Positions 42,159 to 43,825 of a stretch of 64,000 bases of DNA are shown here, one piece after another. This DNA comes from Thermoproteota archaeon (GTDB lineage Archaea; Korarchaeota; JAOZGF01; JAOZFZ01). The notes beneath the pieces are model-generated. The model did not search any database and had not been told where the DNA came from. It saw only the letters and a program-made list of their open reading frames with translations. Numbering within the stretch: position 1 is the first letter of the stretch; each line of letters starts with the position of its first letter. The stretch is from NCBI GenBank assembly GCA_027492035.1, contig JAOZFT010000004.1:473249-537248 (forward strand), in the 5' to 3' direction. Made by a program: the position numbers and the translations under genes.

Positions 42159-42731
42159 TTAAACTTTCCCCTGTTTTGTTTCCAGTTCTTTCTTAATAAC
42201 TGAATCAATTACGTGTTTGCATCTTAAACAAAAGTTAGGTCCTTTAAAGTCAGTGTCAAAAATGGTGTTGCTAAAATACATAACACATTTCCTGTTAATG
42301 CAATGTCTTAAGCCTAAAGTGTGCCCTAACTCATGTAAAGCCTCCTTTAAAGCCCTTTCTAATAACAGGTTTTCATCATATTCTAAGCCGTAAAAGGTTT
42401 GGTTTAATCTAGCAAGAGAAATTAAAGACAAAGGACCGTTAAACAGGGCTTCACCGAAAACAAAGTTTAAGTTATTAGAGTAAGTGTCTTCACTCACTAC
42501 AATTAAAGTTCTCCAATATCTTTTCAAGGTTTGTAGCATAGAGAAATGATTTATTATTAAACTTGAATTGTATTGTTTCCTGTGAGGGTTAAAAGCTGAA
42601 GGGGGAATATTAAACCTTTCCCCGATCTTCACTTTTACCTCTACAAGAAACAAAGGAAGTTCTGTTTTTAAGTATTCCAAAACCGAACTAGGCACTTCTC
42701 CTATAGGCAAAATAAGAATTACAGGCTTCAT
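42159..42731 (-). CDS. amzA: Archaemetzincin metalloprotease
   Basis: HELGHTLGLRHCINRKCVMYFSN...CLRCK matches HExxHxxGxxH-Cx4CxM-Cx2C. Confidence 0.92.
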   Translation of the reverse strand: MKPVILILPIGEVPSSVLEYLKTELPLFLVEVKVKIGERFNIPPSAFNPHRKQYNSSLIINHFSMLQTLKRYWRTLIVVSEDTYSNNLNFVFGEALFNGPLSLISLARLNQTFYGLEYDENLLLERALKEALHELGHTLGLRHCINRKCVMYFSNTIFDTDFKGPNFCLRCKHVIDSVIKKELETKQGKV

Positions 42732-43002
42732 ACAAACCTCAACGCATCCTCTTTAACACTTAACAAATTCATTCTAGCTTTTTTTAAACTTCTATTTCCA
42801 AAGCATAAATTGGTCAAAATTTAAGTGGATAGTTTTATCCTGCCTCTTTTCGTTTTTCTCCATTATCTCTGCTTATTAACTCTCGTAAGCTTTTTAATAT
42901 TCAATAGCTTAACAGAACCTTTAATCCATACTTTAAAGAAGAACATTTAATTCTTTAATAAAATTAAATAACAATTTTTACTTAGAAAAATAGTCCTCTT
43001 TC

Positions 43003-43093: not shown

Positions 43094-43102
43094 CTATAAA
43101 TA
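43094..43102 (+). promoter_or_regulatory. Putative TATA box upstream of the HTH-CARF-like gene
   Basis: CTATAAATA about 90 nt upstream of ATG 43187. Confidence 0.45.
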
Positions 43103-43186
43103 TGTAAAGGCTTTTTCTCTGTTTCATTTTTAAAACTTAACTTTTAAACTAGAGTCAAGGTTTTAAGAAAAAAGGGGAGAAAAGCA

Positions 43187-43825
43187 ATGAAGGAGTTAAA
43201 TCTAGAAAAATTAAGAGAAATCTTGAAAAACCCCACAAAAAGAAAAATAGTTGAGTACCTCTGTTTAAAGGGAAAAGGGGACTTTGCAGAAATTACCAGA
43301 AGTATACCTACCTCCAAAAGAGTAGATTACCATGTTAGATTCCTATTCTTGGAAAGGGTACTGGAAAAGTTAGGCCGCGGAACCTACACTGTAAACCCAA
43401 CAATTCTCTGCATGGTTAGGTCAATATTGGCAATACAGAAACCGTTAATGATTGTAGGGGGAATAAAAGATGAAATGGAGTATAATCTAGATGTGTATTC
43501 GTCTCTAGAACCTTATGGTTATAAACCGGACAAAATAACCTATTTTGCGCCTTCAGAAACACGGAAGAAGCTAACAGGAAAAATTAAGAAAGGAGTGGAA
43601 TTTAAGACATACCCTGAAGAAGTTCTTAAAAATGACTTAAGGAAAGTTTCAAGGGAAGTGGAAGAATTTATCCTGGAAAACCTTCAGAACTATGAACTCT
43701 TAATAGATTTAACGAGTGGAACAAAGCCTGTCATTATTTCTTTATTGCAAGATTCCATAAAGTACAACTTAAAGGCGCTTTACTTTAGTGGACGTCGTGT
43801 TGACTGGGTTAACCAACCCTATTAA
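43187..43825 (+). CDS. N-terminal HTH plus C-terminal CARF-like domain regulator
   Basis: N-terminal NPTKRKIVEYLCLKGKGDFAEITRSIPTSKRVDYHVRFLFLERVLEKLG (wHTH); MIVGGIKDEMEYNLDVYSSL first strand/loop; LLIDLTSGTKPVIISLL (D-x-T-x-GTK CARF/DUF1887-type motif). Confidence 0.7.
   Translation: MKELNLEKLREILKNPTKRKIVEYLCLKGKGDFAEITRSIPTSKRVDYHVRFLFLERVLEKLGRGTYTVNPTILCMVRSILAIQKPLMIVGGIKDEMEYNLDVYSSLEPYGYKPDKITYFAPSETRKKLTGKIKKGVEFKTYPEEVLKNDLRKVSREVEEFILENLQNYELLIDLTSGTKPVIISLLQDSIKYNLKALYFSGRRVDWVNQPY

Follow-up and report, generated by a model that had tools for sequence, protein, structure and literature searches.

Csa3, whose CARF dimer binds cA4 while the wHTH domains move (PMC8699464, PMC8844856), is described in a 2022 review as the sole experimentally characterised non-nuclease CARF effector (PMC9704534), and in most families the wHTH lies C-terminal of the CARF domain (PMC4012209). 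The gene described here lies in a 64-kb stretch of DNA (the window), which belongs to contig C9 (666 kb) in the 1.87 Mb, 42-contig genome of an archaeon, 93% complete. Its product resembles Csa3 in combining a CARF sensor with a wHTH and is likewise predicted to be a dimeric regulator responsive to cyclic oligoadenylate (cOA); however, Csa3 carries the CARF domain first (PMC8699464), whereas in the window protein the wHTH (residues 6-69) precedes the CARF domain (residues 85-212), and its best match is to a different CARF family. The two proteins also differ at motif II, which is L-x2-G-hydrophobic-R in Csa3 (PMC8844856) and DLTSGTK in the window protein. Card1/Can2 and Cdn1, which provide its best CARF fold matches, have a nuclease domain where the window protein has a DNA-binding domain instead. 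The initial annotation, exact as to open reading frame, strand, length and quoted motifs (MIVGGIKDEMEYNLDVYSSL, residues 88-107, and LLIDLTSGTKPVIISLL, residues 171-187), had called the domain order inverted; it is indeed opposite to that of Csa3 (PMC8699464), but alignments of the relatives identify it as the normal layout of the protein's own family, kept by all full-length relatives examined.

Profile searches assigned the window protein to the CARF_m5 family. This PADLOC model (PDLC01987) was the best match and spans most of the protein, with an E-value of 1.1e-22 compared with 2.4e-8 for the runner-up CARF model. A total of 21 PADLOC families matched, including many weaker Csx1/CARF models; nearly all of the weaker CARF and Csx1 models aligned with the C-terminal half, the HTH was matched by one CasR model, and no Csa3 model was among the 21. 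The protein has its best significant match to the CARF_m5 profile and, like other members, an N-terminal wHTH. The family name reportedly stems from the 2020 classification of the CARF superfamily. Additionally, TIGR02710 of NCBIfam, a CRISPR-associated CARF family, was matched below its cut-off (E 4e-4), as is Pfam CARF_Card1 by relatives of the protein, and a Pfam search with the window protein alone gave no match. A search for viral relatives found none.

Searches against the PDB with a profile of eight relatives (A1) matched the N-terminus to ArsR-type wHTH structures (E 2e-7, best over positions 12-89) and the C-terminus to the CARF nuclease Cdn1 (8z4i; E 0.002, positions 117-215). An AlphaFold model built from a two-sequence alignment, which is of low confidence (pLDDT 53, pTM 0.51), consists of a wHTH at 6-69, then a linking helix at 71-80 and, from residue 87 onwards, a domain in which strands and helices alternate; a single-sequence model was discarded (pLDDT 40). 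When the two-sequence model was compared with the PDB by Foldseek, Cdn1 with cA3 (E 4.9e-4) or cA4 (E 6e-3) occupied ranks 1 to 3, Card1 with cA4 came seventh and the ring nuclease Crn1 ranked lower, with only the top match under E 0.001 and other Rossmann-type folds close behind. The comparison with CARF structures proposed in the initial annotation returned a CARF protein as top match, from a low-confidence model in which the Rossmann-like domain carries motif II after the fourth strand, as in the CARF superfamily. These fold matches support the sequence evidence for CARF, short of proof. That the protein is not a CARF at all was rejected on the PADLOC, PDB-profile and fold searches. PADLOC, PDB profile, model and Foldseek agree on wHTH first and CARF second, and they support the earlier prediction of a likely nucleotide-responsive regulator encoded outside a CRISPR locus. 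Feature coordinates are collected in Table 1. Upstream of the regulator, on the opposite strand (42159-42731), is a gene for an archaemetzincin-like protease (Pfam Peptidase_M54, E 1e-25).

Table 1. Features of the window gene and its product (positions are those of the window).
Feature	Position	Strand	Basis
wHTH-CARF open reading frame (CARF_m5 family)	43187..43825	+	212 aa; PADLOC PDLC01987, E 1.1e-22
Winged HTH, ~residues 6-69	43202..43393	+	Secondary structure of two-sequence model; ArsR-type wHTH profile match
Recognition-helix region, residues 43-56 (SKRVDYHVRFLFLE)	inside winged HTH	+	79% identical to C37 paralogue
CARF domain, ~residues 85-212	43439..43822	+	Strand/helix alternation in model; PDB fold and profile matches
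GGI loop after first CARF strand, residues 91-93	43457..43465	+	GGL/GGI in most CRISPR-linked relatives
CARF motif II DLTSGTK, residues 174-180	43706..43726	+	Predicted ligand-contacting motif, from sequence
Candidate archaeal TATA box tataaatat	43095..43103	+	Inspection only
Candidate ribosome binding site ggggag, 7 bases before ATG	43174..43179	+	Inspection only

No CRISPR-like repeat array and no Cas10, RAMP or Cas1 match was found in the window, in agreement with the earlier report of neither a cas gene nor an array within the 64 kb. The accompanying description of the gene as an orphan holds locally but fails genome-wide, as a 20.9 kb contig (C37) carries a type III-D-like operon together with a paralogue of the regulator; this locus answers the call for a type III search elsewhere in the genome, and an organism without CRISPR was accordingly rejected. 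RAMP matches were confined to C37, and Cas10 matches to C37 plus one weak match on contig C21. A cas1 gene was not found in the genome, and the one repeat pattern tried genome-wide for CRISPR arrays gave a single match, equal to the reversed-control count. C37 encodes Cas6, several RAMP/Cas7 proteins, Cas10, a Csm2-like small subunit of the III-D kind, a Csx1-like CARF-HEPN protein with RNDINH (an RxxxxH motif) and a PD-(D/E)xK-type protein. Its Cas10 has GGDD at residue 637, so that a predicted cOA-producing enzyme is encoded in the same genome bin as the window gene. Near cas6 in this locus (L016:2364-3139) we also observed a pair of ribbon-helix-helix-like and PIN-like genes, toxin-antitoxin-like by sequence appearance only.

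The GC content of C37 (36.1%) agrees with that of the window (36.3%) and tetranucleotide frequencies are close, hence C37 probably belongs to the same organism; on these grounds a contaminant contig is not favoured, though C37 may still have been misbinned. The cas6/HTH-CARF end of C37 (L016:1-2036) shares 95% DNA identity with a contig from a genome of a different genus (L018), and such identity across assigned genera suggests a recent transfer or a binning problem of this end. The same regulator is present between cas6 and cas2-cas4 on a 3.7 kb contig (JAOZFL010000176.1) of a relative of the same family (G001).

The C37 paralogue (G000:C37:385-1041, minus strand) is 43-44% identical to the window protein over the whole length, has the same motifs, and matches CARF_m5, the wHTH part of the profile included, with an E-value of 2.5e-34, the window copy scoring lower. 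The two genes differ in setting: the paralogue is divergent to cas6 across a 263-bp intergenic region in the type III-D-like locus, whereas the window copy is unlinked, with neither cas genes nor arrays adjoining. Compared with an overall identity of 43%, the recognition-helix region is 79% identical between the copies and the region from motif II to the fifth strand 68%, whereas mid-CARF residues 120-165 are only 30% identical. That the recognition-helix and motif II regions are better conserved than the protein as a whole suggests, at the level of sequence, a ligand and an operator common to both copies. In a formal test for an over-conserved recognition helix, no 14-residue stretch exceeded 11 identities, a count found at the helix and also close to the last strands; permutation gave 0.088 for 12 or more identities in 14, so that conservation of the helix is suggestive only. 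A shared palindromic operator upstream of both copies was rejected, as shuffled sequences reached the score in 106 of 200 cases for the window copy and 21 of 200 for the C37 copy; upstream of the window gene (455 bases), the C37-palindrome pattern matched only once, with 2 mismatches, at the very AT-rich positions 42959-42978.

On balance, we consider it probable that the window protein is a duplicated, unlinked, cOA-responsive CARF_m5 regulator that controls the type III locus, and perhaps other genes, in trans. In the mechanism for which we infer dimerisation, ligand, operator and direction of regulation, the protein would be a homodimeric one-component transcription factor of CARF_m5 type, its C-terminal CARF domains forming the dimer and binding cyclic oligoadenylate that Cas10, encoded on another contig, would synthesise once the type III complex encounters foreign RNA. 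The bound ligand would shift the N-terminal winged helices and so alter binding at target promoters; both cOA reading and this change in promoter binding are proposed by analogy with Csa3. The protein presumably originated in a recent duplication shared with the regulator divergent to cas6, and since conservation is comparatively high in the DNA-reading helix and the ligand motif, the operator on which it acts in trans would most likely be that of its paralogue or one resembling it, and it may have additional targets. A role in buffering or degrading the signal, in which the CARF domain binds or cleaves cyclic oligoadenylate as a ring nuclease or sponge and the wHTH is secondary, appears improbable to us: it has a precedent in Sso1393, a ring nuclease of CARF-wHTH build from a CRISPR locus (PMC8699464), and K180 corresponds to the motif II lysine with which ring nucleases bind cOA (PMC8844856), but the similarly built Csa3 proteins show no such nuclease activity (PMC8699464, PMC8844856) and conservation of the recognition-helix region is high.

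The PDLC01987 model was searched in overlapping genome sets: 29 from the window's phylum, 394 relatives, 231 from another archaeal phylum and 23 from a third. The neighbourhoods of homologues, which the initial annotation had proposed to survey, included type III-linked and actin-linked ones. In other archaea, related copies have Cas10, Csm3-like or Csm2 genes or CRISPR-like arrays as neighbours, among them one beside a Csm1-type Cas10 (G252), one, read only as a CARF-sized open reading frame, near a Csm3-like gene, cas2 and an array (G130), and copies beside type III genes or arrays in three further genomes (G505, G528, G485). A tree of 30 proteins, in which the long-branch rows G252 and the second G466 copy are placed unsurely, paired the window protein with the C37 copy at 100/97, and a 99/97 branch separated all CRISPR-linked members and the window protein from all actin-linked members. 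Members of the CRISPR-linked clade mostly have (D/E)(L/I)TG(G/S)TK and GGL/GGI, whereas motif II is altered in most of the actin-linked clade, mainly to GSR, GTR, GPP or GGK.

Within the pair, branch length is 1.05 for the window copy and 0.39 for the C37 copy, and by this sequence measure the longer branch allows a changed ligand or changed targets. The window gene was present in one genome only, with no orthologue in the nearest relative, G001 (94% complete). Although this distribution and the long branch are what a decaying relic of a duplicated regulator would show, the open reading frame is intact, without stops, and preserves both functional motifs, and we regard decay as highly improbable.

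The 231-genome phylum, which we take to be Asgard-like because 204 of its genomes have a eukaryote-type actin at E 1e-50 or better, contained 47 CARF_m5 genes less than 3 kb from an actin gene, every one of them (47/47) divergent to it. Five further divergent CARF_m5/actin pairs were read directly, and the other CARF_m5 genes in this phylum had other neighbours or no listed actin on the contig. Divergent wHTH-CARF/actin loci include L042, L043, L044, L046, L048, L051, L053, L092, L094, L099, L101 and L105, among others. In L095, L096, L098, L092 and L094, a 2-phosphosulfolactate phosphatase (ComB-like) gene adjoins the wHTH-CARF gene, as called by Pfam for the L095 copy and by first-residue resemblance for the other copies. 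Near full wHTH-CARF genes, L090:7334-7765 and L102:8445-8873 encode shorter proteins of ~142 aa that match mainly the CARF part and are possible CARF-only partners. A link of the window gene itself to actin was rejected; the only actin-like gene found in its genome is ~332 kb away on the same contig. The window copy shares the wHTH-then-CARF order of the CARF_m5 family but differs in lying beside neither cas genes nor actin.

The existence of a sister clade tied to actin rather than to cas genes makes a non-CRISPR use seem possible in this family, and bears on a further reading, in which the duplicate has been re-purposed, its CARF domain still binding a nucleotide and the protein regulating non-CRISPR genes or itself via cOA or another small molecule. 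The unlinked position of the window gene among genes of housekeeping appearance, its longer branch and the low identity in residues 120-165 point the same way, as does the activation by Csa3 of DNA repair genes besides cas genes (review PMC9704534). Against this, motif II is preserved and the recognition-helix region closely resembles its counterpart in the CRISPR-linked copy, and we consider re-purposing rather unlikely, if less so than a ring nuclease or sponge. We continue to prefer action in trans on the type III locus.

HTH-first CARF proteins are already covered by the CARF_m5 model. In the literature searched we found no paper using CARF_m5, "HTH-CARF" or "wHTH-CARF", although the HTH-first order may have been mentioned earlier, and none joining Asgard, actin and CARF, although the actin link may likewise have been mentioned before. 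HTH-first CARF regulators represent a second design beside Csa3, apparently untested; two are encoded in this genome, one within the cas locus and the other away from it, alongside a Cas10 that could feed them. More surprising than the window gene is the actin-linked sister clade. With the scales tipping slightly towards doubt, we propose that the HTH-first CARF regulators of CARF_m5 are used in two ways: some would serve type III loci of several archaeal phyla, others would control the eukaryote-type actin gene of the Asgard-like phylum. The window gene would then represent the CRISPR side in unlinked form, possibly with non-CRISPR targets. If this is true, a CRISPR-alarm-type sensor and an actin gene regulator would be of one origin, which raises the question of whether a nucleotide-sensing regulator controls Asgard archaeal actin.
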